64,000 nt of DNA, from assembly GCF_018143015.1 (NCBI RefSeq), contig NC_054746.1, forward strand, positions 38,814,687 through 38,878,686, read 5' to 3'. A model generated the notes under the pieces. It ran no database searches and had not been told where the DNA came from. It saw only the letters and a program-made list of their open reading frames with translations. Positions 8,201 through 63,227 of the stretch are shown one piece after another (position 1 is the stretch's first letter; the number at the start of each line of letters is the position of its first letter). The translations under genes and the position numbers were made by a program. Source of the DNA: Lytechinus variegatus. Its lineage: Eukaryota > Echinodermata > Echinoidea > Temnopleuroida > Toxopneustidae.

Positions 8201-11200
8201 TAAAAATCGCCAAAGTCATTCCAGTTCATAAAAGTGGATTAAAAGATAGTATATCTAATTACAGACCTATATCTATTTTCCCTTTGTTTTCTAAAATCTT
8301 AGAGAAATGTGTGTATATACGTGTATATAAATATTTATTCTTGGACAAGTGCAATATCATTACTCCAAAGCAGTTTGGTTTTCGTGCAGGTCACTCTACA
8401 TCTTCTGCCATTATCGAGTTAATACACAAAGTATCAATTGCCTTTGAAAAAAAAGAAGCAATGATTGGGTTGTTTTTAGACCTTAGTAAGGCCTTTGATT
8501 CTCTGGATCATAATATTTTATTAAAAAAGTTAGAGAGATATGGATTTAGAGGTGTTGTATTTGAATGGTTTAAAAATTATTTAAGTAATCGTAAACAGTA
8601 TGTATTATTAGATGAATGTGAATCTCAGATGATGACAGTAAGGTGTGGAGTGCCCCAAGGCTCAATATTAGGCCCATTATTATTTCTTTTATTTGTAAAT
8701 GACTTGTGCAATATTTCTGAACAATTTGAGCCAATATTATTTGCGGATGATACTAGTGTGTTTATGTCCCACCATGATATCATTACTCTACAAAATAACT
8801 TGAATACTGAATTTGACAAACTGGTAGTCTGGCTTAATAATAATAAACTTGTACTTAACATAAAAAAACAAATTTCATGACTTTCACAAAAAAAACATAT
8901 TGATGCAACCCAAATAAAATTAAAAATCAAAGACTCTTTCATATGTCAAGTCAAACAGACAACTTTTTTAGGGGTAACTATTGACAATAAACTAACATGG
9001 AATGAACACACTAGTGTCATCTGCAATAAAATATCCAAACGTATTGGTTTATTTTATAAACTGAAATCTTTTCCCAAAGAAACTCTAATGATCTTATACA
9101 ACACATTGATATTGCCACATATGTATTACTGTATTCTTACATGGGCATGCTCTAGTATGCAAAATACTAATAGACTTTTTGTGCTGCAAAAGAAAATTAT
9201 AAGACTTGTTTATCACAGCCAATACCTTGCCCATACCAGCCCTATATTCTTTAATCTAAAGACTCTGAAAATGCCTGATATATATGTTTACCAATGTGCA
9301 ATATTCATGTATTTATGTATCCACAAATTATTACCAACATCTATCATATCATATTTCCAACTGAACAGAAATATCAAACTAGGCATTCAAACAATTTTCA
9401 TTTTCCCTTAACAAAAACTTCAACTTACCAAAATACAATTTTTTATAAGGGTCCATTAATTTGGAATGAATTACCATTTACAATAAGACAGAGTCCAACG
9501 CTGAATACTTTTAAAAGAAAAATGAAATTTTTACTATTACATAGGTACCTTTAAATTGTAACAGTTTGATATTTTAAATAAGAATGTATGTGTGTGTGTG
9601 TTTGCTGGTGTTTGATTATGAATGGTGTATGTGTGCTGATGTGAATGTATGGGTGTTAGATTTAAATGTACTGTTTTCAATTCATTTAAATTTGCTATTC
9701 TTAATCAACAATTCAATTTTTAATCTTCTTATCTGTATGGAGATTGGCTTTTTATATAAGGCTCTGCCTTTCTGCCTCTCCTAATACTTTCATTTGTATT
9801 GTTTGTTTTTATATGTTTTCTTTATACTCCTTTATATGTGTGTATATATCTACATTGTTTATATGTTTTTTAATGAAAGTATTGAATAAATGAAATGAAA
9901 TGAATTTGTGATTAGCATTCGTGATTTTAGTTTGGTTTCACACGAGCTAAAAATTTGTCATTAATCTTATTTTTTACCGGAATCATCATTCCAATTACAT
10001 TTTATTTTATTTCTCTAAATAATAGAAAGAAATAGTGTTACGAAACCCATGCAATTATGTTTTACAAAAAAATTGTCTGATACTTATGGTGGTATACAAC
10101 TTAAAGAATATAGACAACCAAGTTGATGTGACTATCAGCTTGAGTTTTACACCTTTACAGCAGGTTTTCACATTGTGTGAACATCACACCATATCACCTG
10201 TACTCTCTCTATCCATGATTGATATACGATCTGTAATATTCCAAGAGGAGAAGTAACTCAGTTCTCAATCAGTCTCTCATCCCAAAACTCTCTTTTTATT
10301 CATCTCTGTGTCTGTTCATCTGTTTCTCTCTGTGATCCTACCTCTTTATTCAATGCTCTCTTTTTCCACCACAGAGAAGGATTCCAATTTTCTACATAAA
10401 AAAACTAAAATTTATTTCGCCCCAAACCGAATGATTTTAATGAAATGTGCTAGGGGGTAGATATTCAAATAATCCAATATCCAAGCACTCCACCCCTTTT
10501 CATACTTTCTTCTTCCCGAGTCTGGCTTATTACAGATGTCTTCAGTCATTCTGTTTCTCTCCATACTTTTATTCACACATTCTTGAGCTCTCAGCTCTCA
10601 CTTCTGAAATCCATACTGTCCAAGTTCATCACCGATAGAATTCACAAACCCCAATCTGAGGTTTGCCTGAGGATAGGATGACCAGTCATCAATCACAACT
10701 CCATTAACACCACATCACACATTATCACCTGCTTACTATCAATGGACACCACCCCATTATTATTACAGATACCCTCAATATTTTAGTCAAATGAGTTAGT
10801 AGTTGTATCATGCTTGGTGTAATCTTGTCAGCAAATTTTTGCCACAAAATATAAATCACTTAATCTGAAGATATGTATATATATATATTTACAATTATTC
10901 GTTATTTTGAGAAGGGAATATAGAAGAATTAATTAAACTAAAATGGGTTTTGAGGAAAACAGGGTTTAAGGAATACAGGTATTAACCTGATGTGCTGAAC
11001 CAAGGTCACCTATGTCCAAAACACTAGAATTACATAGATCAATTGACAACACATTAATTATGTACTCCTCTGTAAAAAAATAATAACTGCCACCCCTAAC
11101 CTCAGATAAAAAAAATCAAATTATACCATTTAAAAGCCTGGTATATTATTATCACAATTGCTCTTATACCTAAATATGAAATCTATATAAATGGTATACT

Positions 11201-44200: not shown

Positions 44201-47150
44201 ATACCCTGGTCATGGGCACACGCTGTATGAACCTCATCCACGGGGGGGGGGAGGAGGGTGGGGGGTTGGTAGTCAAATACATTGCTGTACACACAGGTGA
44301 CCAAATAATTTCCAAGCACCCCCAAACAAGTTTATCTCTGTGTGCATTAGTACCCCCTAAACAAGTTTTTCGCGGGTTTTATTTACACATTTTTTCCCCT
44401 TAACAACTTTCCGCCAAAATAAGACCTCAGGGAAAAAGCTTAGGGAAAAACATACCCTAGCCACGTTTGGCTAGTCTTAACAAAAAAGCTTTTATATGTT
44501 TGACCTCGCAATTGACTATTGACCAGTCTTTCAAGACCACCCTTTTTCTTGAAAATCTTTTTTTTTATACCCTTAATGAGTCCACGACTCCACACGCAGA
44601 CTGCATCCAAAACTGAAAAAAAAACACCCCTCTAAATACGTTTTTTTTACGCTTGTATACAGAAATATATTTGACTGCCCCCCCCCGGGCTCATCCACTC
44701 CATGTGGAGCATTCACACTTGTAATAATTCTCAAACTAGGCATGCTCCATGTACACTGGCTTTTGCATCCTTTCAGAAAAACATTAGTCAGTGTCTGGAG
44801 AGGACCATACACTAAGCAACAAACTGAATGTGTTTTACTAATGCCAATTCATATTGTAATAACACCAATGCATGTTTAACAACATAGATTTAACACGAGT
44901 GTTAAATGCTTGGTGTGGTTCTCTGAGAAAACTGGTGGTGTAGTAGAAAATACCACTATTTTTTTTAGTATACAGGCGTAAGGTGGTACTGTACTTTGTG
45001 AAAAGTCTGTGTGAAGAACACCTGTGTGTTTTCCTTTATCATCAAAACACCACACTAATATTGGTAGTTTGGTTGTATTTTTCTTCAGAAAATTTGCAGA
45101 AATTCTTAAAGGCTACTCTCATTTCTGTGGGATGTAAATTGTTGGTGGCACATCGATTTATACACCTCATGTAGACAGTACATGTATCAACTTAATACAT
45201 GCCATAAAAAAAATGTTACCCGCTATACAATAGCTTACCAAGCATCAATCACAATGCTATATTAGGCAACATTCTTCTTCTGGATCAGCTTTCATGTGGG
45301 GGGGGGTGCTCAAATCATATTTTGACCTGGGAGTGCCTCACAAATCCCTGAAATGAGGGTCTAAAAAACTCACTACACAATGTATACAAGGTCATGAGGC
45401 ATGAATTATCACAGATGATACATGTACATCATACATCTCTACTCTACAGGTCCCCTTTTCCTCACTATTTCATTCAGAAAGAAATACCTCCTCACTGAGC
45501 AACTTCCAAGGAAGCTCTGAGATTTGTGATTTCAAACTATGTGTTTTTTAACATCTTTAAAGTGAATTGAATTCAATCTGATTATTAATTATCAAAAAAT
45601 ATGCAAAATTAAAAAAATTACAAACATTACAAAGTATAGAGATGAAACATTATACAAATGACCCATCATACTTAAAGATAAATGCAAAATACTTGGTTTA
45701 TATATACATATTAGGAAAATTGGATGCCCATGGAAGCAGTATGCTTGTAAGCCTGTAAGGTTGTGTCACCAAGAAGTCACTGCATAATCAAGCATGATGA
45801 AATAGAATTCTGGTAAATGTATCACTTCTTACCTTGTAATGAATTAAACTCTACATTCTAATAAATATTCAGTCATGTGAATATTTTACACTTGCTCAAG
45901 ATTTAACGATCAAATTTTACAAAATATTGTTCTTTCATTTTTCATTGATTCGACCAAAAAAGTGGTAGGGGTGTCCCGCTGGTGAGGCAAAAAACGGGGG
46001 CCTTGGAGCGGGCTCTCTAAAAATAAGGGTCCTCGGAACGGGCTTCGGAACTACAAATCTTTGTGAAAACGGGGGTCCTTGGAACGGATCTCCGGCGTGT
46101 GAGTGCGTATATATGCATCCCTATGGAACGGGCAATCGTGCACTATGCAGCTAGCGCGGCCTCCGCCATGTGCGCTCGCGCTGAGGCGATGGTCGAAAAG
46201 CGCTCTACGGCCGCTTTTCACCAAAATTGCAGCTCCTTGTAGCAGATCAATGCGATCTGAACGGCGTAACGAAAAATATGCGACGCTTTGGAGCGGATTT
46301 CTTTCTTCTTTTTTCTCGATAAGAAGAAAATGCTATGCCTTGGAGCGGCTTTGTTCTTTTTCTCAAGACCAAAAATGCTATGCATTGGAACAGAAATTTG
46401 AGTGTAAAAATGGGGGTCCCCTCCGCGGCACATATCCACTATGCGTTATATACTGAGTGCCCCCCCCTGGGACCTAAGCAATCATTGAATACAAAATTGT
46501 GTTTCAACATTATCCTAACCAATGAATAATGCCCTCAGTAAACAGGTATCGGTACCGAAATCTCACAGCTGCAATGCGGGCGAGACAAAAAAAAACTTTT
46601 TTACTATTATACATCTTTCATACATGCAGATTACAGCAACATACATGCACTTGCTGGAAAACACCCTTCTACCCACTGTTAAAAAAAAATCTTGCACTTT
46701 TACTTTCATTGATTGATTCACACACACACCTTTATCTTCCTCGTCTATTTTTAGAGCTTTAGTTAAATACTCAAATGCTCTTTTATGATGTTGTTTCTGC
46801 TTTGATAACTGTGGATCAAGCTTAGTTCCATTAGATGTTGGATTGGAAGACGATGAAGGATTAATTGTTACTCCAGTCATAGCATTCCCATTATCCTCCA
46901 TGTCGTTTTTCAGAGGACCATAACCCGTCTTGCTGCTGTCGACCATGCCGAAACTCTCCCGTCCACTGACTCGAGAAACAGCCTCAGTTATGAGAATCCA
47001 CAGCTGGAACACAATAAAACGAAGTAAGCTGAACAGTAAAAGCACTGGATAGCTGGCCCACTGGAAATTCCTTCTGTGAATGGACTGTGGACCTTCTGTT
47101 TTGGGCTCCTTTTTATCGCCGGGAGTTTTTGGGCGAATTTTCCGGGGCAT
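2119..47150 (-). CDS. SPAST: Spastin (microtubule-severing AAA ATPase), 5' six coding exons; 3' part outside window
   Basis: Spastin is a hexameric AAA ATPase that cuts microtubules at endosomes, ER, lipid droplets and the midbody. Six exons on the minus strand join in frame: 46730-47150, 42949-43035, 35434-35520, 6964-7121, 4618-4795, 2119-2258. In order they encode a basic N-terminus, a hydrophobic hairpin, an MIT domain (first three exons), a Ser/Pro/Arg-rich linker, the segment matching the start of the microtubule-binding and AAA regions ([14 protein letters not shown]), and the AAA N-terminal part ending just after Walker A (GPPGNGKT). All introns have GT-AG ends and phases agree. The remaining AAA exons (Walker B, sensor motifs) were not found between 1 and 2118 and should lie to the left of the window. 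The spastin identity is firm because hairpin, MIT and the [20 protein letters not shown] stretch all agree with the family. Confidence 0.93.
2395..3420. repeat. Tandem repeat, units of about 153-192 bp, each with a DR1 motif, ending in a GCC/hairpin tail
   Basis: About six degenerate units share the words AAGTTTCATGAACTAG, AAGTTATGATGG, GGCCAAAGTTCATTGACC and CATGTGACCTGAAAC. TGACCTTTGACCT occurs at 2534, 2687, 2850, 3013 and 3205. The array ends with a GCC run at 3362-3377 and a hairpin GTCTCAC...GTGAGAC near 3398-3423, which looks like a defined element end. It lies in the intron between spastin exons 5 and 6. Confidence 0.85.
4618..4795 (-). CDS. SPAST: Spastin coding exon 5: microtubule-binding region and start of AAA domain
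   Basis: The 178-nt exon starts [18 protein letters not shown] and continues through [20 protein letters not shown] to VTFNDI. The [17 protein letters not shown] segment is the characteristic spastin sequence that leads into the AAA domain. The acceptor is CTGCAG and the donor ATTG followed by GTAAGC. A perfect AGGTCA-A-AGGTCA direct repeat (DR1) happens to overlap the acceptor junction at 4785-4797. Confidence 0.92.
4796..6963. other. Spastin intron 4 (between exons 4 and 5)
   Basis: No further exon was found. The only notable site is an X-box-like palindrome at 5712-5725. The rest is AT-rich intron sequence. Confidence 0.6.
5712..5725. promoter_or_regulatory. X-box-like RFX motif GTTACCATGGCAAC
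   Basis: The 14 bases fit the RFX consensus GTHNYYATRRNAAC at every position. It is one of four such sites in this gene's introns (see also 12423, 25742, 33454). Function is inferred from the motif only. Confidence 0.4.
6964..7121 (-). CDS. SPAST: Spastin coding exon 4: Ser/Pro-rich linker
   Basis: The 158-nt exon encodes a basic, serine- and proline-rich stretch starting [14 protein letters not shown] and ending SVPSQPK. It is low in hydrophobic residues, as expected for the disordered linker between MIT and the microtubule-binding domain. The acceptor is CATAG and the donor CCCAAG followed by GTAGTT. It enters in phase 1 and leaves in phase 0, joining the next exon without a gap. Sequence here is poorly conserved between spastins, so the call rests on splice signals and phase. 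Confidence 0.78.
7425..9903 (+). mobile_element. 5'-truncated, frameshifted non-LTR retrotransposon (CR1/L2/Jockey-like LINE)
   Basis: A degraded LINE lies sense on the plus strand inside the large spastin intron. Pieces read in order are the linker after the endonuclease (7440-7742: [16 protein letters not shown]), the RT (7711-8880), and the C-terminal domain (about 9088-9554, ending [12 protein letters not shown] ... [12 protein letters not shown], typical of the group). RT motifs are visible: [42 protein letters not shown] and the catalytic FADD. The reading frame shifts at least near 7720, 7940, 8073, 8875 and 9400, so it is inactive. ORF1 and the endonuclease are missing. The 3' end carries a TGAAA-type short tandem tail at 9883-9903. 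Clade assignment by eye only. Confidence 0.88.
8074..8880 (+). pseudogene. Reverse transcriptase domain of the LINE (longest intact piece)
   Basis: This 268-codon open stretch holds most of the RT palm and fingers. It starts just after a one-base insertion in what should be GK-APGFDG. The first catalytic Asp lies in [10 protein letters not shown] (residue 136 of the stretch), followed by [12 protein letters not shown] (192-203) and [10 protein letters not shown] with the Asp pair at 225-226. It ends at a frameshift in an A7 run, after which the reading continues in another frame. It is a fragment of a dead element, not a host gene. Confidence 0.88.
11554..12120. repeat. Minisatellite, about 5-6 copies of a roughly 100-bp unit
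   Basis: The phrase CCAATGCACAACCAAG followed by AAACATTCATCAAGATGGAA and ACTGGTTCTGAT recurs. Unit starts are near 11554, 11650, 11753, 11848, 11953 and 12107. The unit length is about 95-105 bp, with one longer interval caused by inserted ATGGATG-type sequence. GGGTGGGG runs recur between copies. Confidence 0.85.
12423..12436. promoter_or_regulatory. X-box-like RFX motif GTTGCCATGGTTAC
   Basis: Its reverse complement GTAACCATGGCAAC fits GTHNYYATRRNAAC. It is the second of four such motifs in spastin introns. Function is inferred only from the motif. Confidence 0.4.
18868..20896. mobile_element. Foldback element: 2-kb near-continuous palindrome with TTAA at both ends
   Basis: The two halves are inverted copies of each other around AGATCT at 19887-19892. 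Strong arm homology covers about 19061-19850 and 19924-20702, for example TGACGTCACTGTCTGTACGA at left against TCGTACAGACAGTGACGTCA at right. Homology weakens in the outer 150-190 bp on each side, but the extreme ends match again: TTAA-AGGAGAAATATATTG at left and CAATATATTTCTACT-TTAA at right. A TTAA target duplication suggests a piggyBac-like mobiliser, by inference. No transposase is visible. The left arm has a short acidic open frame from 19182 ([14 protein letters not shown]); its counterpart in the right arm is disrupted. Confidence 0.85.
22586..22826. mobile_element. MITE-like palindromic element with TACAC...GTGTA ends
   Basis: The left end reads TACACTGTAAAAACTGCGGTG and the right end, reverse-complemented, TACACAGCAAAAACTGGTG. 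Both arms continue with GTGTTAA ... ATAGAGGACCACACC. The interior is built of GGTGTTA/TAACACC words. There is no coding capacity. Fragments of related sequence occur at 44850-44970 and 48190-48240. Confidence 0.8.
24656..24781. mobile_element. Small palindromic MITE-like element (about 126 bp)
   Basis: The left end TTTCATGAAAGTTTTGTCTG and the right end, reverse-complemented, TTTCATGAAAGGTTTTGTCA form inverted repeats that extend about 28 bp. No coding capacity and no clear target duplication. Confidence 0.65.
25742..25755. promoter_or_regulatory. X-box-like RFX motif GTTACCATGGCAAC
   Basis: This is identical to the 14-mer at 5712-5725 and fits the RFX consensus. It is the third such site in spastin introns. 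Confidence 0.4.
29170..29500. repeat. Purine-rich tract (G/A on the plus strand)
   Basis: About 330 bases are dominated by GGGGG, GAGAGG and GGGAGG words on the plus strand, with few pyrimidines. Open frames on the minus strand here are Pro/Ser-rich by-products of composition. Confidence 0.7.
29640..30075. repeat. Short-unit repeat arranged as two inverted halves (GAACCTTCGGAA words)
   Basis: From 29650 to about 29785 the plus strand carries CCGAAGGTTCGT-type words. From about 29785 to 30050 it carries the complement, AACGAACCTTCGGAA, in units of about 40-45 bp. The right half keeps one frame open over several units ([10 protein letters not shown] repeated), but similar open frames on both strands argue for a repeat rather than a gene. 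Confidence 0.75.
31142..31641. mobile_element. Non-autonomous foldback element with TTAA duplication (family TTAA-A)
   Basis: Ends are TTAA-AGGGGAAGTTCACCCTG at left and CAGGGTGAACTTCCCCT-TTAA at right, a perfect inverted repeat. Imperfect inverted homology continues inward over 100 bp or more (GATTTGTGACGTCAT at left, GATGTCACAAATC at right). No coding capacity. The TTAA duplication is piggyBac-like, by inference. Confidence 0.8.
33016..33118. repeat. Polypyrimidine tract
   Basis: About 100 bases are nearly all C and T on the plus strand, built from CTCTC, CCCTCC and TTCTC words. It is simple sequence in the intron. Confidence 0.7.
33454..33467. promoter_or_regulatory. X-box-like RFX motif GTTGCCATAGCAAC
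   Basis: All positions fit GTHNYYATRRNAAC. It is the fourth such motif in spastin introns and the nearest one to exon 3. Confidence 0.4.
35434..35520 (-). CDS. SPAST: Spastin coding exon 3: MIT domain last helix
   Basis: The 87-nt exon reads [20 protein letters not shown] and then KERLNI. This matches the third MIT helix (ARRLQAKMMTNLVMAKDRL-like). The acceptor is ATCCAG and the donor ATAA followed by GTAAGT. Phase 1 on both sides. It is separated from exon 4 by a 28.3-kb intron. Confidence 0.9.
37860..38390. mobile_element. MITE-like element with AGGGTGTGTTCAATG inverted ends
   Basis: The left end AGGGTGTGTTCAATGT and the right end ACATTGAACACACCCT are perfect inverted copies. Homology continues about 50 bp inward (CATGAATCATG ... 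CGAAAACTTG at left against the complement of CAAACATGATTCATG at right). An internal copy of GGGTGTGTTCAAT sits near 37954. No clear target duplication and no coding capacity. Confidence 0.7.
39222..39808. mobile_element. Non-autonomous TTAA-flanked foldback element, family TTAA-B copy 1
   Basis: Ends are TTAA-AGGGGAATGAAACC at left and GGTTTCATTCTCCT-TTAA at right. The arms, about 200 bp each, are inverted copies sharing AAGTTTGAGAAAAATCGGAC, AATGCTATGGAGAT and GGCAATGCGACAA. A second copy of the same family, closely similar along its length, lies at 51621-52205. Confidence 0.85.
42949..43035 (-). CDS. SPAST: Spastin coding exon 2: MIT domain middle
   Basis: The 87-nt exon reads [20 protein letters not shown] and then IAVDCSKPG. 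This matches the second MIT helix of spastin, which binds ESCRT-III tails such as CHMP1B. The acceptor is TACAG and the donor is CCAG followed by GTAAAG. Phase 1 on both sides fits its neighbours. Confidence 0.92.
43200..43624. repeat. Dispersed repeat, family TTAA-C copy 1
   Basis: It shares TCCTCATTGTCAT, CAGTGAGTGACAT, CATCTAATTTTGATGAATT and the right end GGTGGACTTGACCT-TTTAA with the repeats at 49190-49423 and 49430-49919. The left end is not clear. A stretch of open frame (43397-43624) lies wholly inside it and is not a gene. Confidence 0.7.
45955..46460. repeat. CpG-rich degenerate repeat of CCTTGGAACGG words
   Basis: Words such as GGCCTTGGAGCGGG, GGTCCTCGGAACGGG, GGTCCTTGGAACGG, CGCTTTGGAGCGG and GCCTTGGAGCGG recur at about 50-bp spacing. 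Base composition is far richer in G+C and CpG than the surroundings. The open frame at 46103-46456 follows the repeat and has no recognisable domain. Confidence 0.6.
46730..47150 (-). CDS. SPAST: Spastin coding exon 1: N-terminus, membrane hairpin, start of MIT domain
   Basis: This exon encodes a Lys/Pro-rich N-terminus ([11 protein letters not shown]), a hydrophobic segment of about 25 residues ([20 protein letters not shown]) matching the spastin ER/lipid-droplet hairpin, a Ser/Asn-rich spacer, and the first MIT helix ([18 protein letters not shown]). It ends GATAAAG before the donor GTGTGTGTG, leaving phase 1. I chose the ATG at 47148-47150 because the basic PRKIRPK run resembles the start of other spastins. 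An in-frame ATG 13 codons upstream (47187-47189) is an alternative. A further in-frame ATG at 46944-46946 lies just after the hairpin and has G at -3 and G at +4; human spastin uses a second start at the same place. Confidence 0.9.
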
Positions 47151-47189
47151 GGGCGGCCGAAACCGATGCCCCTGTGCAGTACAAATCAT

Positions 47190-50140: not shown

Positions 50141-50213
50141 ATGACGGTGTTCAGAAAGACTTTACTTATTACCTTCAGCTTGATCATTTCTACAATAATT
50201 CAGAGTGCAGCGG
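50141..50213 (+). CDS. Sphingomyelinase-like gene 1, exon 1 (signal peptide)
   Basis: The ATG at 50141 starts a 24-residue signal peptide (MTVFRKTLLITFSLIISTII and QSAA). An in-frame ATG 20 codons upstream exists, but the downstream start gives a standard signal peptide and matches the paralogues in length. The donor is GCGG followed by GTAAGT, phase 1. Confidence 0.85.
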
Positions 50214-53200
50214 GTAAGTTTTATCTTTTTCATAATAACGTAACTATTATATATCCTGTTATCAGTTCCTTTTGCACTCCAGTGTTTTTTTTATATGTAT
50301 ATCGGGTTATATTTTCATACACATGCGAAAATTAATTCAAGAGTGTAGGCCTAATTTGTATATTTTTCCATTTATTTTTTTGACTCACTGATATTAGACG
50401 TTGTTTTACTCCAAATTAAGTCCAAATATCGATTGCTTCTAAGTTTAGAACCAATGATAAGCAAATCTATTCCACGAGTATTCAAACGCGTTTTATAATC
50501 ACAAAAGCTCTCGTTCATTTCGCTATAGCTTTCTGCTTGAAATGATTCATCCGATTTACTTATATATACTATGTAATGACACTCTCTTTTCGATATAAAC
50601 CTATTTTAATACTCATGCATGAAATTAAATTGGTTTGCATCTCCTCTATTTGCCAAAATATGTAAAACACCAAAAAATTTATTCAATCCTTGAGCGTGGA
50701 TGTTTAGATTATTAAACGACTATGTAATATCCGTATACCATGCAAGTATACTGTATTTAAGAACTCTGCTTTGCCTTTTCTTTCACTCTTTTATTTTCCT
50801 TTTATCGACTGTTCTTCTCTTCGCTGGACCCCATGACAGAACAACAGTGCCATGATTGGCACAGCTGATAAGCAAGATCCAGCCAATTTAATCTGAATAG
50901 GCCTATATTTCTTTGTATTATGTAAGCCATTTGAACCATTATGTTTATGTTCAATGTTTAAATCGGAAAATAAATACTCCAACTGCTACTCTTTTTTTCT
51001 CCCTTTTTTTATGGGGGGTTGCTTTTATTGAAACCAACTTATCGCCATGATGAACTTCCTCATTCAAGCAAGCACAATTTAAAGAAGCAATCCTACATAA
51101 CGTTTGTTTAACTACAGTATTTCAAACGAATATCATTATAAAAATAATTATTAAGCGATTCCTCTTTAATGATTTTCCACGCCTGTATTATTACCAACCT
51201 CAAAAAAAAAAAAAAACACTACAGTGAATAGATAGTTGTAATTTTTCTTTCTAAAAACGGAGAGGGAAGACGATTTTTTAGTTGAACATTATATTTTTGA
51301 GATGGTCCCTAGATGGTCCCTTGATATAAGCCACTTTTAAAATGTATTAATCAAATCAATTATTTATTGCAAATGAAAATACCTCAACACCAGTTGGCTT
51401 GTGTCTTTTTAGCAGGCCGATGTTGTCAATTTGCTTCGAAGGAAGTATCGTTGGGGGCGCGAGTTCACATTTCATATATTTGGGATTAGATCGTGAGAGA
51501 ATTTCCTGAAGGCCTGGGGGGTCGTTTCATAAAACTGTTCGTATAAGTTAAGAGCGACTTTACGAACGACCCATTGTGCGTGTTTTTTGCACATTATCGA
51601 AATGCTTTGCAGCGGAGACATTAAGGGGGAACGAAACCTTTGGAACAAGTAGGCTTGTGTCGAAACAGAAAAATCAAAGCAAACGAACAAAGAAAGTTTG
51701 AGAAAAATTGGACAAAAAATGAGAAAGTTATTAGCATTTGAATATTGCAATCACTAATGCTATGGAGATCCTCCCATTGGCAATGCGACAAGGTTGTGTG
51801 ATGTCACATGTGAACAACTTTCCCTTTATTGATTGACTATAAAATACTCCCAAAATGTCTCTCTTTGCTTCTTCTTACGGTGATACAAACTCTTTATCCA
51901 AGATGTATTCTTTAAAAATCTCTATTACATGCCCTAGAATATGCTCTACTGATAGATGTGAAAAAAGAGGCAGTTTAAGTGAAATATATACTAAAGTAAT
52001 GGGGAGAGTTGTTCACAAGTGACATCACACATCTTTGTCGCATTGCCAATGTGAGGATCTCCATAGCTTTAGTGATCTCAATATTCAAATGCTCATAACT
52101 TTTTCATGATTTGTCCGATTTTTCTCAAACTTTCGTTGATCTGTTTCTTTAATTTTTCTGTTTTCACACAAGCTATCTTGTTCCAAACATGTCATTCTCC
52201 TTTAAAGAAGATTAAAAGACGCCTATCTGAAACTCCTCTTACTTACTTACTTGAAAGAAATAATATAACACAACGATAATGTACATGATATTTTTTAACC
52301 CTAACAAGACCGGGGTTTTTTTCCGGAGGAGGGGGAGAATTTTGGCGGTATAGGGCCTACACAATTTTTTGTCTGCGCTTGCAATCCACCAACCCCCCCC
52401 ACACACACACACTTGAAAAATTCATGGTGCCATCACTGCCCTTTCGTGCATGAGGACTTCTTGGGGATATTTTTTAACAAAATTTAATGCGTGGCTGAAA
52501 TGCCATATAAAATGCCTTACCCCTATATGTCGACACCCGTAGGTTCAGACATCACTGATCACACACGTGATCTTCTAAATTCTAACAGTGAGTAACGCCC
52601 CTGTTAAACTATGTTCTCATTTAACTCATCAATTTCAAATCTTTTATCTTTCATTCTATCAGATCAAGACTGTCAAATCCAACTGGAAGACACTCCATCG
52701 GTATGGCTTGGTAAATATCAAATATCATCTCAGTTGCTTTTCTTCACTTTTTTTAAATTCATTTCCACAACCTAATCACTTAGCTCGTCAGAAAAAAAAG
52801 AAAATAAGATAAAAACTTTCAGTAAAAAATACCTCTCCCTCTATATTCAAATATCTAAGTTTTAATTTCCTTTAGCCATATTTTCATGGATAGTTATCAA
52901 GCCAGAGATTTATAATGTACTGTAACTATGTTCTTCTCAGAAGCCGTAGTCTAGGTCCAAGGACCATTTATGCACCTCTCTCGACAGAGTGCATCACTTG
53001 CAATCTAATCTACCTTCTCTCCTGAATAATTATATAATAATATAATAGGTAGCTCACAAACTATAAGTATGTGAATCGTAACATACGCAGAATCGGGTGA
53101 TCTATATTCTCTTGTTTTGTATTTATTTTTTTTTCATGTTGATTCATTTCAGGCGATGAAGATGACGTAACATACTGTGAGGCGGAACCATCTCAATGCT

Positions 53201-54453
53201 CTGATTTTGGTCTCGTTTTTGTCTGTGAAGACCCGTCCGGTGGTTCTCTTGAACCATGCGCTAATGGCACCAAAGTCCTGTGCTCTGTTCCAGATCCCAT
53301 CCCTCTTGATGACCCAACACCGTCATCTGAAATCCGTGTGGTCATTTACAACATCTGGGAACTTCGATACCTCTATTATCAGAACGGGCAGCGAGAACGA
53401 ACGTGTCGTATTCTTCATGAGCTCTTCCGTCTTCGTCAAGACATCGACGTGATTGTATTCAATGAGGCCTTTATGGGTGGGTGCTTCTCCAAGTTCAATT
53501 CTACAGTTGAGATGAGCACTCTAACTATTCGAGATATTCTGGTACAGCATGGATTCATCTACCATACCCAGACAGTTGGAGAAGTAAGGGAACTACCCAA
53601 GTTTGAGAACGGTGGTGTCTTTATTGCTTCTAGGTGGCCAATAATTTCCGAAGATGAGACAATTTACACGGAAGCGATTAAGACGACTGCAGATGCGTTG
53701 TCAGCAAAAGGCGCTAAATATGCTCGGGTTCTTAAGTCGGTAAACGGATCGAGTCGATATTACAACATCTTTGGGACCCATCTACAGGCATCAAAAGGAG
53801 TAAATGCTGACAGGGTTCGTGTAAGTCAGGCAACGGAGATGCACGATCTGGTCGTGAAATTGGCACTCTCACCAGAAGAGCCAGTAATCTATGCAGGGGA
53901 TCTTAACACAAACTATTATGACAGGGAACCTAGGTCCAACACTGCCAACATCCTCAAGGCCCTTCATGCTTTGGTCCCACCGATCATTGGTGAACTCAAT
54001 TACACCACGGACGGCTTACTCAATGATGCTAGAGACGGCGACAGTGCATCCTACAAGGATTATGTAATCTACCATGAAGACTACCTTCATCCATTAACAG
54101 CTTCTCAGGAAATCCTGCGTCCCAGGGCATCAGAGTTCTTTGAAGTCTGCATAGAGGCCATCACACCATTCCCTACCTATGCGGACTCTGATAGATGTCG
54201 AAAGACTCAAAATATTAGTGATCTTGCGGATCACTTTGCAGTAATTGGTGTCTACAAGTTTGATAACAAAGCGGTAACAACCGAATCAAGTGAACCCAGC
54301 ACCACGAACGTCGTCACCCATGAACCTACAGAATCTGGTCAAACCACAAAATCAGATACAACCTCTTCCATAATGACTACAGATTCAGGTGTCACCAGCA
54401 GACTTTGCGTGGCTACTTTCATTTTATCGATACTCTCGGGCCTACTTTTCTAG
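50141..54453 (+). CDS. Sphingomyelinase-C-like phosphodiesterase 1 (secreted, probably GPI-anchored), 3 exons, 473 aa
   Basis: The predicted enzyme hydrolyses sphingomyelin to ceramide and phosphocholine, by homology to Bacillus-type sphingomyelinases of the exonuclease-endonuclease-phosphatase fold. Exons 50141-50213, 52663-52710 and 53153-54453 join in phase 1. Residues 1-24 are a signal peptide. Residues 25-90 form a Cys-rich module (CEDPSGGSLEPC). The catalytic domain follows with N107, metal-binding E145 (VFNEAFMGGC), FIASRWPI, H250 (GTHLQA), D290 and N292 (GDLNTN) and D400-H401 (DLADHFAV); all expected residues are present. A Thr/Ser-rich stalk and a hydrophobic tail (VATFILSILSGLLF) with no cytoplasmic end suggest a GPI signal. 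Several N-glycosylation sequons are present. A paralogue follows 1.2 kb downstream in the same orientation. Substrate is inferred; another phosphodiester is possible. Confidence 0.88.
51621..52205. mobile_element. Non-autonomous TTAA-flanked foldback element, family TTAA-B copy 2
   Basis: Ends are TTAA-GGGGGAACGAAACC and GTCATTCTCCT-TTAA. Internal words AAGTTTGAGAAAAATTGGAC, CTATGGAGATCCTCCCATTG and GGCAATGCGACAA match copy 1 at 39222-39808. It lies in intron 1 of sphingomyelinase-like gene 1. Confidence 0.85.
52663..52710 (+). CDS. Sphingomyelinase-like gene 1, exon 2 (48 nt)
   Basis: This micro-exon encodes DQDCQIQLEDTPSVWL plus one base. It aligns with the 45-nt exon 2 of gene 2, with a shared C and a PxVWLG ending. 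The acceptor is CTATCAG and the donor GGCTTG followed by GTAAAT. Phase 1 on both sides. Confidence 0.82.
53153..54453 (+). CDS. Sphingomyelinase-like gene 1, exon 3 (catalytic domain and C-terminus)
   Basis: The acceptor is CATTTCAG at 53145-53152. The exon carries the remaining Cys-rich module, the whole catalytic domain, the Thr/Ser-rich stalk (about residues 410-455) and the hydrophobic tail, and stops with TAG at 54451-54453. It has no internal frameshift or stop. Confidence 0.92.
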
Positions 54454-54782
54454 GGATCAGTCTAGATTGGTGATTCCATTATACATCATCTACAATTATT
54501 CGATAATAGTAGTGATCAGTTAAGTCACTAGTGAATCTATCATAATTATGTAACTTCACGTGTAACTTATCGATTTCATATCTTGCTATTTTTTTCATAC
54601 ATACTTAAAAAAAAACAAAATTGCTTTGGGTGAGTTTTATTCAAGGTATATGTTTTTAGACGGAAAATCTAGTGGGATACTTCAATTCCTAGCTGACACT
54701 CATTAATTTACCGATATCAGTATTCCAATTCAGATGGAGGCTCCAAAAACAAATACAAAACATTTGATAATTGTATTTAAAA

Positions 54783-54796
54783 AATAAATTAATAAA
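54783..54796 (+). terminator. Candidate poly(A) signals of sphingomyelinase-like gene 1
   Basis: Two AATAAA hexamers lie at 54783-54788 and 54791-54796, about 330 bp after the stop codon. Other AT-rich hexamers are nearby, so the site used is uncertain. Confidence 0.35.
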
Positions 54797-55649
54797 TTGG
54801 AAAGTATTTACAAAACGGCTCAATACAATTTGTGTATTTCCTCAAATAAAAAAATAGAAAACCAAAAACGTGAGTGGACTGCTAGCTCCCACCCCCATCC
54901 AAAATAAATTGGCGAATAAAAAGACAAAATAAGAGTATTCGTGTGATTCTTTATTTTACAGAAAATCTTTAAAGTTCAAACTCGATTTGTACAGTCAAGA
55001 GAAGATAAGCCGACAGTATCGAGGGTAAACAGAGTGGAGATTATACAGGGGTAAATCAAAGAGAGAAAGAGAGGGGACAGACAGAGAGACAAAGAGAGTC
55101 AGAAATGAAAATAAACAAACAATAAAAGAAAGAGAGAAATTGGATTGGCATGAGAGATTGGAGGATATTAAAAAAGGAAATGTGATATGATTTACAGCGT
55201 TAACTACTATTTCAAAGATAGTTTTTTTTGCATCTTTGTATTCGTCGAAGTAGTGTTTGTTGATGTACTTCTGTTGCAAAAGAAAAAATGCAAAAAATCA
55301 AAGATTGATTAAAATGTAAAGATAAAAAGTAGTACGAATATGTACTGGAGTGAAGCAATATCACACCGTAACTTAAGTATACCATCTGAGATAGAACTTG
55401 CATGGACATTCAATCAAAATGGACTGTTGGTATCATGAAGTCCCGCAAGGAGTGTACACTTTAATTTGGTTATCTCGATGAAGTCTAATCTCGTCGATTA
55501 CATTCCTTGGTGAGGTTGAACTGATGAGCTATTGCGTTCAGAAATGTTTACCAATCTTACGTATTGTTCCTATACATGACCCTCCGAAAGCAGCACTCAG
55601 TAATCAATAATAAGAAGCATTTCGGACCTGTCACTCTGTAACATTCAAG

Positions 55650-55725
55650 ATGGGAATTGTTCACCACACTTTGACATTAATTGCGTGGAGTATCCTATTT
55701 TTAACAGCATTTACCAACGTTAAGG
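55650..55725 (+). CDS. Sphingomyelinase-like gene 2, exon 1 (signal peptide)
   Basis: The ATG at 55650 starts MGIVHHTLTLIAWSILFLTA and ends FTNVK plus one base before GTAAGT. It has the length, hydrophobicity and phase of exon 1 in gene 1 and of the orphan exon at 59648. Confidence 0.85.
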
Positions 55726-58060
55726 GTAAGTATACTATGTATACCCATCTTAAATTGAATTTCAATTTCTATAAATCTTAAATTTCTATAAGTTTTCTGT
55801 CAGCTGTTACGGCTGTAAGGTCTACAAATAGAGGACACTGCGCTATGATATGCACTTGCCAAAGAAACCATGAATTGGTGAATATGTCATTTAGAGGAGG
55901 AGTCGGACAAAAGTTGCAAAATTAAGTGAAATAAATTACGGTAGAGAAGTCTTAGAGCTGTACATCTATAAAATAAGACGTGGGCATAGAGGAGATGGAC
56001 GTCTAGGATGAAATGAAATAATGCAATGACCACATTGCTCTAACTTTCCTTGTTTATTATATGTTTACAGGTAACAATTGCGATGTAGATGATGGACAAC
56101 CTACGGTTTGGCTTGGTACGTCAATTTGAATATTTTGATTAATAGGAAGAACTGATCATATTCAAGATATCGATCATGTTGTTGATATATAGTAATATCC
56201 AGATTCTAGATATATACATGTCGGCTTCCTCCCATGGTCCTGAAAGAGAGGTGCTTTGCTCGTCAAATTTCCCGGGACCAAAATTATCTTCATTTTTAAC
56301 GGAAACCTTTTTTTGTTGCTTGTTAAATTCACATCAGCACCCTTGCTAAAAAAGGTCGTTCACATAGCTTTGCCTCCTCTCCGCATAAACAATACAATAT
56401 GAGTTTTGTATCGTCAGGTAGTTGTGCTATAGCCATTTCATAAAAAAATTATCAGCAGTGACTAAATTGTCTTATCTGGCAATTAAATTAAGATCCATGG
56501 TTTTCATTAATTGTGAAGAACTGGTCTCTTTATTGTCAGAAGATGGCTATACCAGTTTATGGTGTCTCTGCCGAAGAGCTTCAAGATACGATACAGGCAT
56601 ATATGCCTACATGGAACCAACTATGATTTTAACTGTTTTATGACATCATTCAAAATTAAGCAATCTGTCAATGAAATAAGGCACACATGTATGAATAGAC
56701 AATTAAGGCATTATTTCGAAATGTCGATTGTGAAAGGAAAGCATTCAAACTTTATGCTGAAGTGATGATAATGTTATGTAAATAAGTTGTAAGCAACATT
56801 GAGTATAACGTTCACTTTTGGTTGTATTTGACAGGTGACGAGGATGACGCATATTTCTGCCAGGCAAGAGCCGAGCATTGTGACCACTTCGGTCTTGATT
56901 TCGTTTGTGAGGATCCGAGTGGAGGATCACTTAGACCTTGTATCATTGGGACCAAAGTGAAGTGTGCATCACCACCTGCTGTACCCCTGACTGATCCCAC
57001 TCCTGCCACCACTATTAGAGTTCTTGCATACAACGTCTTTGAGCTACGTTATCTCTATTATCAGAGTGGTCAAAGGGAACGTACATGTCGTATTCCAAGA
57101 AAAGTCTTCGGTATGCATCCAAATATAGATGTCATTGTGTTCAACGAAGTCTTCATGGGAGGTTGCTTTGCCCCTTTTAACGATACCATCGAAACAAGTA
57201 CCCTAACCATACGTGATATTCTGGACCAATATGGATTTATCTATCACACAGATACCGTTGGTGTTGGAGAACCTTTCCCAAAAATTGAGAATGGAGCTAC
57301 ATTCATTGCATCAAGGTGGCCTATAGTCAAGAATGATTCTCGAGTTTTTGATATAGCCGAACCATATTCGTGGATGGCTAAGGGAGTTGTGTATGCCATG
57401 ATCAATAAAACTGTTGCTGGACAGAGTGTTATGTACCATATCTTTGGGACTCATATGCAAGCTTTCCGAACCCCGAATGCAGACTATGTTCGTGTTGCGC
57501 AAGCTACAATCATCCATGAATTCATGCTGGAGCAAGACATCGGTGATGATGAACCTGTTATCTATGGAGGTGACCTGAATGCAAGACTGAACACAACCAA
57601 CGGTGATGACGTCGTTGACGCTCTTGACGCCACACTTCCAACGATCATCGGTGAACTCAATGTCACATACGATCACGAGAACAATGATGTTTTTGACGAA
57701 AATAACGATACGAACTGGTGGTTGGACTATGTCTTGTATAGTCGATCCCACATTCAACCTGACGCTGCTACAATACAGGTCGTGAGACCTAGGATGTCTA
57801 CTCCTTTAGTTGTCTGCTCGACGGCAATATCACCTTTCCCAAGCTATCCCAATTCTGACCGATGCGTTGAAATAAAGAACATTACAGACCTATCTGATCA
57901 CTATGCAGTTCTTGGAACTCTTCAATACAGAATCGATTTCCTTACTCCAACAGACTTCCAAATAACGACTGATTCAGGGACTGGACGTCTTACCTCAAAC
58001 AATTTGGTTGTATCTCTCACATTCATCATTTTAATCACAAAACTAGTAATTGACTGTTGA
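55650..58060 (+). CDS. Sphingomyelinase-C-like phosphodiesterase 2 (secreted, probably GPI-anchored), 3 exons, 448 aa
   Basis: This is a tandem paralogue of the gene at 50141-54453, with the same three-exon, phase-1 structure: 55650-55725, 56071-56115, 56835-58060. Residues 1-25 are a signal peptide, followed by a Cys-rich module (CEDPSGGSLRPC) and the catalytic domain. Active-site residues are N107, E145 (VFNEVFMGGC), H247 (GTHMQA), D287 and N289 (GDLNAR) and D395-H396 (DLSDHYAV). LDYVLY and FIASRWPI also match Bacillus-type sphingomyelinases. It lacks most of the Thr/Ser stalk of gene 1 but shares TTDSG before a hydrophobic tail (VVSLTFIILITKLVI), so a GPI anchor or a short membrane anchor is likely. 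Six or more N-glycosylation sequons. Intact. Substrate inferred from family. Confidence 0.89.
56071..56115 (+). CDS. Sphingomyelinase-like gene 2, exon 2 (45 nt)
   Basis: The exon encodes NNCDVDDGQPTVWL between TTTACAG and GTACGT, with one Cys and the PTVWLG ending shared with gene 1 exon 2. Confidence 0.83.
56835..58060 (+). CDS. Sphingomyelinase-like gene 2, exon 3 (catalytic domain and C-terminus)
   Basis: The acceptor is TTGACAG at 56828-56834 and the stop is TGA at 58058-58060. It holds the full catalytic domain and hydrophobic C-terminus without interruption. Confidence 0.93.
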
Positions 58061-58524
58061 TACTTGGATATCCTGACTTACAGTAAAATTTGGTTGGCTT
58101 TTTCAAATAATAGTAGGCCTAAACATAATGATGAATCAGCCACGTCAGCGGACATTTCACATGACTTGATATAAATCAACTACATTCCTGTGTTTAACCA
58201 TAAATACAACTGTAAGGATTTGATGAAACATGTTTCTATCAATATCATTGTACGATAAAATCTAAATCGATCATACTTAAAGAAATATTTTTTACAGATT
58301 AGTTTCCATTTTTATTTTGTAACGTCTAGCATTCATTTGAAAAGAAGTGCAACTATTTGTTTGACGAAATGTTTCTGAGCATATGTGAGCATATACATGC
58401 TTATCAATGTAGTAAAATGTTTCTGAATAGTGCTACATGTATGCTTGTGAAATTTATGCAATAATTTATTAGCACATGTACCTCTTAATTCGTGGGTTAT
58501 TGTATAAGTAATGATTTATTTGTA

Positions 58525-58585
58525 AATAAAAAACAACATGTATTAACATTCATTATTTATTGGGTGATTTCATAAGGTAAATAAA
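58525..58585 (+). terminator. Candidate poly(A) signals of sphingomyelinase-like gene 2
   Basis: AATAAA occurs at 58525-58530 and 58580-58585, 460-520 bp after the stop codon. The choice between them is uncertain. Confidence 0.35.
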
Positions 58586-58742
58586 GATATAGATTTGTCA
58601 CAATCAGCAATATACTACACGGATAAAATCACAAAAGTTTGTTAAACTCATATGTTCTGTAGGTTTGCAGATTGCAATTAGTTTTTTATCTTGACACTTT
58701 ACTTATACACACAGTGTTATCTCATGCTAAAAGTCAAACAGA

Positions 58743-58957
58743 GTCGTATTCACAAAGCTTTTTACAATTTACGCACGACCTTATACTAAATAAGATTCTT
58801 AATCATTTTAATTTTCATCTTTGTAGATTGAAATATTGTAAATGTAAGATTGTTACTTAACACAATTGGTTACGGATTGTGCGTTGAAAAAATTAATAAA
58901 GATTTTTCTATTAGCTTAGTAACAGGTCAATACACTACGAACAGCTTTGTGAAATCT
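58743..58957. mobile_element. Possible small MITE with ATTCACAAAGCT ends
   Basis: The left end ATTCACAAAGCTTTTTAC is inverted relative to GAACAGCTTTGTGAAATC at right. Inverted homology is short and imperfect. A half-copy of similar sequence (TCATAAAACTGTTCG) occurs near 51524-51542. Confidence 0.4.
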
Positions 58958-59647
58958 GGTAAGATATCATACCAATTTGTAATCTCTGTCTTCTGTCAAT
59001 AAAGTTTGAGGAGGAACTCAACAAATTAAAAAAGGTTCGTAAAGTTTGTGTACTTGTGTTCATTTAATCAGATATCAGCCAAATTTGCTATCTTGTCAAT
59101 ATTATTTCATGAAGATTAAGCTAATTAATGACATTTACCTCTTAATCAAAGAGGCCATAATGAAATGAGGTTGTTCTTGTTCTGGTGGTTTAAATATTAC
59201 TCCTTAATCACACAGTGAATATTATGAACTTTTTGAGGGGCGGAGGTGAGAGGGGTGATTAGAATAAAAGCCACTTTTGAGAACACCTTTATTTTTAGAG
59301 ACCTTGCCATTTCTTTTTGTCTGGTTATACAAACTGCAAAAGGTGTAAATGAACCTTCTTTTGATAAGGAAGCATTATTTGACTAACCAACCAAACAAAA
59401 TTAGAAGACTATCATGCCTATTATTTGCATCATATATAAGCCTACATTACTGAACTTTACTCCGATACCTTCTGTTTAGCAGCATGTCACAACAATCGTT
59501 ACTAGTGCGGTACATTGGCTCACATGTGTTTGTTATTAGACCAAGTTAATTTAAACTATAACAATTTTGATTCTGTTCTTAATATCTTCTCTTGAAGTCT
59601 GGCTTGGATTGTTTTTAGTTATTCGCTTATGTCATCAGATCTTTAAG

Positions 59648-59708
59648 ATGCATCTATCAGCTCTCTGTTTCACAGCAACGGCATTGATTTTTATCATTCA
59701 GGCCAAAG
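59648..59708 (+). CDS. Signal-peptide exon 1 of a third sphingomyelinase-like paralogue (partial)
   Basis: The ATG at 59648 encodes MHLSALCFTATALIFIIQAK plus one base before a donor (AAAG followed by GTGAGA). Length, hydrophobic content, ending in a small or basic residue before the split Gly codon, phase 1, orientation and spacing downstream of gene 2 all match exon 1 of genes 1 and 2. Exons 2 and 3 were not found between 59709 and 60848. The Penelope element at 60849-63994 occupies the rest of the window, so the missing exons lie beyond 64000 or the gene is broken. Confidence is moderate because a signal peptide plus donor can arise by chance. Confidence 0.55.
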
Positions 59709-59789
59709 GTGAGAACAAAAATGTAATGTTTTAATCGCATAGTTCATTTATAAAGAGATGATTCTACTATTTCCTCCACGGCTGGGGAC

Positions 59790-60848: not shown

Positions 60849-60925
60849 ATATATTGGCGAAGAAGCTCAAAAAGCATTGAAGCGGGAGACGTAGCCTGGA
60901 TTTCTTCAACTTTTTATTAATACAA
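60849..60925. repeat. Left inverted repeat of the Penelope-like element
   Basis: This is identical to the reverse complement of 63918-63994. It contains GAAGCGGGAGACGTAGCCTG and ends AATACAA, where homology stops. Confidence 0.95.
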
Positions 60926-60956
60926 AGTCCCAATAGTCAATTTATCCAACTACAAC

Positions 60957-63227
60957 TTGTCCCAAGCTGAAATTAGTCTACTATCCAAAGGACTAAAATT
61001 CTGCCCAACACCACCGCAAGAAGATACCCTCCAACTCAAAAGAGACATACACAACTTTGGCAGACAAATGAAACTGAGATTTCATTTCGCTGACAAATCA
61101 CAAACAAACAGCCAAGACACAAACACCAACAAAGACACAAGACCACAACCAATATCGACACCAGCTAATGAAGATGGGGAAGAACAAAGACCTCCCCTCA
61201 TACAACGGAAAAACATGTGGACCCCACACGTCCATAACCCTAATCTTGAAATGTTCCTTCAAAATGTTGAAAGTGATATTCAGACCAATGCAGACAACTA
61301 CAACACAAAAAAACGACGAGACAATCTCACAAAAGATGAAAGACATGCCCTCAAAAAACTAAAATCAAACACAGACATAATAATCAAACCCGCAGACAAG
61401 GGATCCTCAGTAGTAATAATGTCGAAGGAAAACTACATCCTCGAAGCTGAAAGACAGCTTTCAGACCAGAGCACATACAAAGAACTCACACAGGACCCGA
61501 CACCATCACATCTTATGAAGGTCAAGGAAACGGTTAAAGAACTCGACATTGATTTAGAAACTCAACAAGGCCTTATCCCGAAAAACCCGACATGTCCTAA
61601 TCTCTACTTCCTCCCCAAAATTCACAAACCCAACAATCCAGGCCGGCCCATTGTATCAGGTTGCTCTTGTCCAACAGTCCAAATATCAAAATACCTTGAC
61701 TTCTATCTACGCCCTCTCACAGAAAAACTACCCTCCCACATCAAAGACAGCACTCACTTCTTGAAACACATCAAACAAATCAACAGAGACCCCAACACAA
61801 TTTCCTCCAGAACAATCCTTGTAACAGCTGACGTAACATCCCTCTATACAAACATACCCCACAATGAAGGAATGGAAGCTTGTCAAAAAGCATTAAACAC
61901 AAGACAAAATCAAAACCCACCCACACACCAACTCATCAGACTGCTCGAAATAATACTAAAACTAAACAACTTCCAATTCAACGGCAAACACTACCTCCAA
62001 GTTGAAGGCACAGCAATGGGTACCCCTGTCGCCCCTTCATATGCCAACCTCTTTATGGGTCAAATTGAAGAAAAACTAATAAACCAAATGAATTCACCCA
62101 CTGTCACAAAATCATGGAAACGTTCTATTGATGACATTTTTTTCATGTGGAATGGCTCGCCACGCACACTCGAAAGGTTCCAGGGGGAAATGAACAAGCT
62201 GCATCATTCCATTAAATTCACTTTCGAATCATCCCACCTCCAGACACACTTCCTAGACATATCACTCACAATACACAATGACCAAATAGAAACAGAACTT
62301 TATACGAAACCCACCGATTCACACGCCTACCTCCTACCCTCATCATGCCACCCTAAACACTCCATCAACAGCATACCATACAGCCAAGCTCTAAGAGTAA
62401 GACGAATTTGTTCCGAAGCTGTCCGAGAAGACCACCATCTCGGCCAGCTTCGGCAACACTTTGAAGACCGGGACTACAACCCACAAATCGTAAAAAAACA
62501 AATAGAAAAGGCAAAAGAAAAACCCAAAGAACAACTCCTCACATATCAGTGCAATCCAAAACAAAACAACAACATCTACTTCCCCATGACCTTCTCACCC
62601 GTAACAGCCAAAGTACCAAAAATAATTAAAAAACATTTCCCCATCCTACAACAATCACCAACAACAGCCAACATCTTCCCGAACAAGCCCACTACCTCCT
62701 ACCGTAGAGGGCGCACCCTACGCAACCTCCTTGTCAGGGCTGGACACCCCTTTCCAACACCAAACCCCACCGCCACCAACACCGCCAATGACCCCCCGGG
62801 ATTCTTCAAATGTAAATCACACAAATGCATTCTCCATAATCACATCAAGGACACCACGAAATTCACCAGCACCGTAACAAAACAAAATTACACAATAACA
62901 TCACACATCACATGCAAATCCACCTGGATAATATACCTCATTACATGTACCAAATGCAAAAAACAATATGTTGGCAAAACTGAAACCACCCTTTACACCC
63001 GATTCAACAATACGAGATCCGAAATACGTAACTTCCATTCACCACAACACAAGACTCTTCCATACACAGTGCACTTCAACCTTCCCTCCCATTCACTAGA
63101 AAATGTCCAAATTACCGGGATCGAGTCAATCAGAAGTAGGTCACGTGAAGCAATACTACACCGAGAGTCCTTTTGGATATCAAAACTAAAAACACTACAA
63201 CCACATGGTATCAATGCCGAACAATAG
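60957..63227 (+). CDS. Penelope-like reverse transcriptase with GIY-YIG endonuclease, 756 codons, 5'-truncated
   Basis: The protein copies element RNA into DNA using a telomerase-related RT and a GIY-YIG nuclease. The open frame runs from just after a TAA at 60918. The 60957 start is a TTG, not an ATG, so the true N-terminus is missing or supplied differently. Positions, counted from 60957: conserved KFCPTP (14-19), IIKPADKGSSVVIM (142-155), PKIHKP (220-225), catalytic TADVTSLYTNIP (290-301, Asp 292), GTAMGTPVAPSYANLFMG (351-368), SIDDIFFMW (390-398, Asp 392 and 393), a Cys/His motif (CKSHKCILHNH, 619-629), GIY-YIG (WIIYLI 657-662, YVGKT 671-675, Arg 682, likely Glu 737). RSIDDI has Ser where RYIDDI is common. 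No internal stop or frameshift. Confidence 0.93.
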   Translation: MSQAEISLLSKGLKFCPTPPQEDTLQLKRDIHNFGRQMKLRFHFADKSQTNSQDTNTNKDTRPQPISTPANEDGEEQRPPLIQRKNMWTPHVHNPNLEMFLQNVESDIQTNADNYNTKKRRDNLTKDERHALKKLKSNTDIIIKPADKGSSVVIMSKENYILEAERQLSDQSTYKELTQDPTPSHLMKVKETVKELDIDLETQQGLIPKNPTCPNLYFLPKIHKPNNPGRPIVSGCSCPTVQISKYLDFYLRPLTEKLPSHIKDSTHFLKHIKQINRDPNTISSRTILVTADVTSLYTNIPHNEGMEACQKALNTRQNQNPPTHQLIRLLEIILKLNNFQFNGKHYLQVEGTAMGTPVAPSYANLFMGQIEEKLINQMNSPTVTKSWKRSIDDIFFMWNGSPRTLERFQGEMNKLHHSIKFTFESSHLQTHFLDISLTIHNDQIETELYTKPTDSHAYLLPSSCHPKHSINSIPYSQALRVRRICSEAVREDHHLGQLRQHFEDRDYNPQIVKKQIEKAKEKPKEQLLTYQCNPKQNNNIYFPMTFSPVTAKVPKIIKKHFPILQQSPTTANIFPNKPTTSYRRGRTLRNLLVRAGHPFPTPNPTATNTANDPPGFFKCKSHKCILHNHIKDTTKFTSTVTKQNYTITSHITCKSTWIIYLITCTKCKKQYVGKTETTLYTRFNNTRSEIRNFHSPQHKTLPYTVHFNLPSHSLENVQITGIESIRSRSREAILHRESFWISKLKTLQPHGINAEQ

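Follow-up and report, generated by a model that had tools for sequence, protein, structure and literature searches.

The 64,000-nucleotide stretch of Lytechinus variegatus DNA analysed here (the window) carries an array at 50141-59709 (+ strand), in which two genes are complete and a third is represented by its first exon. We consider it somewhat better than an even call that these genes encode a predicted secreted, surface-anchored sphingomyelinase C, which animals likely obtained from bacteria ahead of the divergence of the bilaterian phyla. The gene structure, the kinship in sequence and in predicted fold, the conservation of the catalytic residues, the cysteine-rich (Cys) module shared with bacteria and the single animal clade are established, and are described below.

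Gene structure of the array

A tandem cluster of Bacillus-type sphingomyelinase genes in an animal genome had been proposed in a preliminary description of this DNA, and the exon models (Table 1) together with their exon-by-exon matches to L. pictus proteins confirm it. The layout described there for genes 1 and 2 also holds, i.e. an N-terminal exon, a micro-exon of 48 or 45 nt, and one exon with the Cys module and the catalytic domain. All four introns are of the GT-AG type and in phase 1. The products of gene 1 (473 aa) and gene 2 (448 aa) display 50% identity across 413 aa. In tblastn, each exon of gene 1 is matched by a separate piece of L. pictus P0001 (473 aa), with 92, 83 and 96% identity (95.6% as the finer figure for exon 3); P0012 (448 aa) likewise aligns to gene 2 with one piece per exon and 67, 71 and 95% identity (94.9% for exon 3). 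The gene 1 micro-exon encodes one cysteine and the start of the Cys module (VWL). Intron 2 apparently falls at the same codon in the single-ORF predictions P0003 and P0009 (echinoid-like) and P0015 (which groups with the brittle star), and we infer intron gain in the urchin sphingomyelinase genes.

Table 1. Exons and encoded segments of the sphingomyelinase array (positions in the window)
Feature	Position	Strand	Observation
Gene 1 exon 1	50141..50213	+	Hydrophobic N-terminal segment read as signal peptide; 92% identity to L. pictus P0001
Gene 1 exon 2	52663..52710	+	48-nt micro-exon; AG/GT borders, phase 1; P0001 match
Gene 1 exon 3	53153..54453	+	Remaining Cys module, sphingomyelinase C catalytic domain, Thr-rich spacer, hydrophobic C-terminal end
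Gene 1 Cys module, exon-3 part	53152..53286	+	Residues 1-45 of exon-3 frame; bacterial-module profile E 1.4e-8
Gene 1 Thr/Ser-rich spacer, TTDSG, hydrophobic C-terminus	54310..54450	+	Predicted GPI signal; low pLDDT, then short helix
Gene 2 exon 1	55650..55725	+	Hydrophobic N-terminal segment read as signal peptide
Gene 2 exon 2	56071..56115	+	45-nt micro-exon
Gene 2 exon 3	56835..58060	+	Cys module (profile E 7e-10), catalytic domain, hydrophobic C-terminal end
Third paralogue exon 1	59648..59709	+	Followed by GTGAG; 90% identity to residues 1-21 of L. pictus P0006

Of the probable third gene, only exon 1 was found in the window. As tblastn of P0006 gave no match to exons 2 and 3 between 59710 and 64000, the shared three-exon layout can be seen in genes 1 and 2 only. 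A Penelope-like element, with a single open frame of 768 aa carrying reverse transcriptase and GIY-YIG domains, lies downstream of this exon at 60921-63224 (+) and probably sits in the first intron of the third gene. Intron 1 of gene 1 contains a 204-nt inverted repeat (51621-51824 and 52002-52205, 85% complementary, spacing 177 nt), which looks like a small inverted-repeat element. Elsewhere in the window, PDB sequence matches reveal pieces of spastin at 46563-47189 and 2002-2397 (-), which suggests a spastin gene extending across the left side of the window in head-to-head orientation to the array. The reverse transcriptase frame at 8065-9411 (+), with an RVT_1 match of E 2.8e-30 in 8065-8880 and, after a stop, an open stretch in the same frame (8881-9411), is a remnant of the non-LTR type.

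Catalytic domain, predicted substrate and C-terminal end

The motifs listed in the preliminary description (NExF, SRWPI, GTHxQA, GDLN and DHxAV) were all found. The seven metal and acid-base positions are invariant columns in an alignment of 64 rows; N67, E105, H210, D250, N252, D360 and H361 of the exon-3 product correspond to N16, E53, H151, D195, N197, D295 and H296 of the Bacillus cereus enzyme. The latter comprise the central metal ligands and the acid-base histidines. H151, H296 and E53 of the B. cereus type are named in titles within the reference list of PMC9710629. The edge metal site N57/E99/D100 corresponds to G109, E152 and N153, with one of the three residues kept (N57 to G, D100 to N). 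In the L. ivanovii enzyme, T92 replaces an asparagine, by context probably N57, according to an excerpt of PMC9710629. The predicted hairpin is composed of strands 325-336 and 349-357, with C333 and C349 and the segment PFPTY between them, while the W284/F285 tip is not kept as such; we infer a C333-C349 disulphide in this hairpin.

Both products score far below equivalog membership of TIGR03395 (78.5 and 92.6 bits against a curated cut-off of 248.2), and the scores with PF03372 (Endonuclease/exonuclease/phosphatase) are 27.8 for gene 2 and 23.7 for gene 1, the Pfam cut-off being 24.5. Structure comparison of the predicted fold gives a clear match to the endonuclease/exonuclease/phosphatase superfamily. 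The animal neutral sphingomyelinases (SMPD2/SMPD3) gave no match at E <= 0.001 among the solved structures, and the fold match to them is weaker than that to the bacterial enzymes. The distance of both products from the TIGR03395 cut-off, an edge-metal site and a hairpin tip unlike those of the B. cereus enzyme, and the annotation of the starfish relative P0039 as phospholipase C-like would suit an enzyme that prefers another headgroup (ceramide phosphoethanolamine, phosphatidylcholine or lysolipids), with sphingomyelin not its main substrate. However, the closest solved structures are all bacterial sphingomyelinases, followed by human neutral sphingomyelinase, with the nucleases behind, and such a preference appears rather unlikely to us.

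The C-terminus was scored as hydrophobic when the best 14-residue mean was >= 1.8 with <= 12 residues beyond it; the window products reach 2.36 (0 residues beyond) and 2.46 (2 beyond). Such an end is present in 17 of 23 echinoderm rows (two of them the window genes), 6 of 10 hemichordate rows and 5 of 15 other rows, the positive P0142 looking like intron read-through, and it was found in none of the 8 annelid, 2 flatworm, 1 priapulid, 6 oomycete and 33 bacterial rows. Ten of the 33 named ambulacrarian rows also fall short of the threshold, including the early-branching P0041, P0130, P0043, P0141 and P0143 as well as P0018, P0030, P0039, P0051 and P0167, and the trait requires 6 changes on the tree. 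Just ahead of the hydrophobic end, TTDSG or TTNSG (the latter in P0008) occurs in 8 of 12 echinoid-group rows (two being those of the window); one of the remaining rows has TTDST and three have no such site. The hydrophobic end with the TTDSG/TTNSG site directly before it leads to the prediction that the C-terminus of the products is a GPI signal.

The best reading of sequence and model is a secreted, GPI-held sphingomyelinase that may act on outer-leaflet or dietary lipid. The signal peptide would direct the product into the secretory pathway, and the Thr-rich spacer with the TTDSG-bearing hydrophobic end would be exchanged for a GPI anchor, keeping the enzyme at the outer face of the cell. 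Catalysis would rely on a metal ion bound by Glu, Asn and Asp and on the two conserved histidines, acting as acid and base, and would convert sphingomyelin to ceramide and phosphocholine, while the aromatic hairpin, which is probably closed by a disulphide, would contact the membrane. The enzyme might serve to digest membrane lipid of dietary or microbial origin, or in ceramide signalling. Extracellular sphingomyelinases with this fold have been described as haemolysins of bacteria. Human neutral sphingomyelinases (8j2f, 5uvg) have the superfamily fold and the predicted reaction type in common with the urchin products. ENPP7, the alkaline sphingomyelinase of the vertebrate gut, is unrelated to sphingomyelinase C in fold and family; it would play a comparable part at the cell surface, acting on dietary sphingomyelin, which is an analogy only.

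Cys module and the extra cysteine pair

No family of Pfam or NCBIfam reaches its cut-off over the Cys module (P0168 carries the precomputed label PF27913). An earlier regular expression proved too narrow, implying 18 changes on the tree, and a profile of 73 bacterial module copies, picked by motif from 82 proteins, was used instead. This profile matches both window genes (Table 1), Macrostomum (E 2.8e-22), annelids and hemichordates; it found nothing at E below 1 in the 18 bacterial loci from the locus search and matched none of the 6 oomycete rows, the best value with reversed sequences being 7.9. The score is weak or absent in some animal rows, mainly of crinoids (P0022, P0024, P0141 and P0143). 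Several copies occur in P0125 (five), P0126 (four) and the hemichordate proteins P0041 and P0130 (three each). In P0178 (783 aa), a module copy lies inside the catalytic domain directly after GDMN, along with a DUF5648 domain, and the oomycete proteins P0146, P0148 and P0149 have a Cys-containing C-terminal extension, with no module detected in these proteins. A 55-residue model of the module (pLDDT 82, pTM 0.55) found no PDB match at E <= 0.001, the best E being 3.2.

Four module cysteines are constant across the alignment. Ambulacrarians have an extra pair, one cysteine in the micro-exon region and the other after the second module cysteine. Thirty-two ambulacrarian rows were examined, 7 of them outside the motif; among the 25 matched rows both cysteines occur in 22, only the second in 2 and neither in one (P0039). 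The upstream cysteine occurs without the second in 7 of 7 annelid rows and 4 of 5 flatworm-group rows, some of these cysteines falling in signal peptides or other segments; as all seven annelid rows have the upstream one alone, the pair is not strictly linked. These counts point to the ambulacrarian micro-exon as a likely source of a disulphide partner. The module would then form a small, disulphide-held cap before the catalytic domain, which in most ambulacrarian copies would be clamped by a likely bond between the micro-exon-region cysteine and the extra one of exon 3.

As compared to the known bacterial sphingomyelinase C enzymes (B. cereus, SmcL, S. aureus beta-haemolysin, S. griseocarneus; TIGR03395), the urchin genes add the N-terminal Cys module and introns, and their products have a hydrophobic C-terminal end, a hairpin cysteine pair and an altered edge-metal site. 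The module-bearing bacterial-type enzymes (P0049, P0075, P0125 and P0126) follow the same plan, Cys module and then catalytic domain, P0049 being 34-37% identical to the animal rows compared. Enzymes of this type have up to five module copies, a lipobox-like N-terminus in 33 of 82 (a loose motif) and no hydrophobic C-terminal end, and both extra cysteines occur in 0 of 69 matched bacterial rows.

Distribution, phylogeny and origin of the family

Relatives come from protein searches that depend on common five-residue words; one listed 53 proteins, the second the best 120 of 172, after scoring of only the 7,998 candidates with the highest word overlap, and the third 66. The matches listed include echinoids, sea cucumbers, starfish, a brittle star, crinoids, hemichordates, annelids (Owenia, Dimorphilus), Macrostomum, Priapulus, oomycetes and bacteria. 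Vertebrate, arthropod, mollusc and cnidarian relatives are not among the matches listed from these word-based searches, which does not prove absence from those groups. Among the 10 rows listed of the 15 records from the plasmid search, the relatives are all distant (22-30% identity). The annotation 'sphingomyelinase C-like' is already attached to several proteins of echinoderms and hemichordates; those of L. pictus, Diadema, Asterias, Saccoglossus and Ptychodera are orthologues or paralogues of the urchin array, under automatically given names. No dedicated study of an animal sphingomyelinase C family was found among the titles and abstract starts of the matching literature listed, and the word sphingomyelin is absent from the part of PMC6006793 covered. 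Hemichordate P0002, P0004, P0007, P0163 and P0164 (789-864 aa) seemingly have two enzyme units per chain, and P0171 has an added C-type lectin domain (PF00059 label). Apparent tandem copies also exist in Diadema, Holothuria and Dimorphilus, which, as a guess, would fit a digestive or defence role.

The tree was started from 88 of 191 proteins and 12 of 18 loci plus the 2 window genes; P0188, L014, P0052 and P0175 were dropped, and the final tree comprises 98 rows and 297 columns of the catalytic domain only, with the root not inferred by the program. Most bacterial-labelled rows are metagenome proteins with group labels assigned in this analysis. The 57 animal rows form one clade (100/99). Within it, an ambulacrarian group (99/90, with the long-branched hemichordate P0051 outside), annelids with Priapulus (98/76) and Macrostomum with further rows (99/94) are recovered. 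The tree matches animal phylogeny only broadly, since the flatworm group branches first and not with the annelids, and the rest is weakly supported (91/62). Three urchin paralogue clades each include a Diadema protein, which makes the duplications older than the Diadema/Lytechinus split; the duplication proposed earlier is thus real and old, and the tandem copies of the array would go back beyond that split.

A phylogeny had been named in the preliminary description as the check on a transfer, and in the tree the proteins nest deep within the metazoan clade. This agrees with the little-studied native family raised there as the alternative, and refutes a transfer in the urchin lineage, while an acquisition before the bilaterian split is favoured. 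Bacterial-looking motifs and an intron-free catalytic exon might have pointed to a recent transfer into urchins or to bacterial contamination of the assembly. However, the multi-exon models are matched by L. pictus proteins, spastin-like exons lie in the same window, and there are orthologues in other echinoids within a deep animal clade; a recent origin of either kind has a negligible probability and is ruled out by the tree, the multi-exon structure and the spastin-like exons.

The animal clade is joined to 12 bacterial rows at 99/96. The module motif is present in 10 of these 12, the bacterial group itself is weak (96/61), and its sole named row is P0075 (Candidatus Tectomicrobia). The old bacterial acquisition suggested in the preliminary description is favoured by this junction with module-bearing bacteria, but the AU tests against nesting vary with the rows chosen. 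With 19 module-type bacterial rows held as one clade, p is 0.008; this set was picked after the first tree and includes four rows without the motif (P0132, with a weak module profile match of 1.5e-4, and P0134, P0144 and L001, with none). With the 15 motif rows only, p is 0.056, and with the oomycetes left free it is 0.14. As p depends on the rows, the case for bacterial nesting is built on branch support and on the module common to both sides; the AU tests point in this direction but are not decisive.

The two stricter values do not clearly reject a separate bacterial clade, and animals and oomycetes as one clade are not rejected either (AU p 0.094). Both would be expected if the family had been present in early eukaryotes and lost in most lineages, the closeness of bacteria and animals coming from rate differences and sparse sampling; the animal copies look patchy, and losses are needed in any case. 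Such an ancestry is nonetheless unlikely in our view, for the oomycetes form a separate clade (100/99) outside the animals and the 12 bacterial rows, and the module that is common to animals and bacteria has no match in any of the 6 oomycete rows. Passage of an animal gene to bacteria would benefit from the unrooted tree and from a strict nesting within module-bearing bacteria that is not firmly supported. The Tectomicrobia include sponge symbionts, which is a point for this direction. It seems quite improbable all the same, as with a module-less bacterial outgroup several bacterial-type module lineages branch before the animals, and the bacterial-type proteins P0126 and P0125 are those with four and five module copies.

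An acquisition of the animal gene from bacteria, earlier than the divergence of the bilaterian phyla, is likely. In a fuller version, which we advance tentatively and at less than even confidence, a sphingomyelinase C with its bacterial Cys module would have entered the bilaterian stem and been kept in ambulacrarians, annelids, flatworms and priapulids, and the ambulacrarian form, GPI-anchored and clamped by the micro-exon disulphide, would be a surface enzyme that provided invertebrates with an outer-leaflet switch from sphingomyelin to ceramide, built out of a toxin-like fold. If true, an animal family that has a likely anchor and a module in common with bacteria would add another route to outer-leaflet ceramide, and would offer a testable example of a very old gene acquisition retained in several phyla, for which sea urchin gametes and embryos would be a convenient system in which to study the enzyme.
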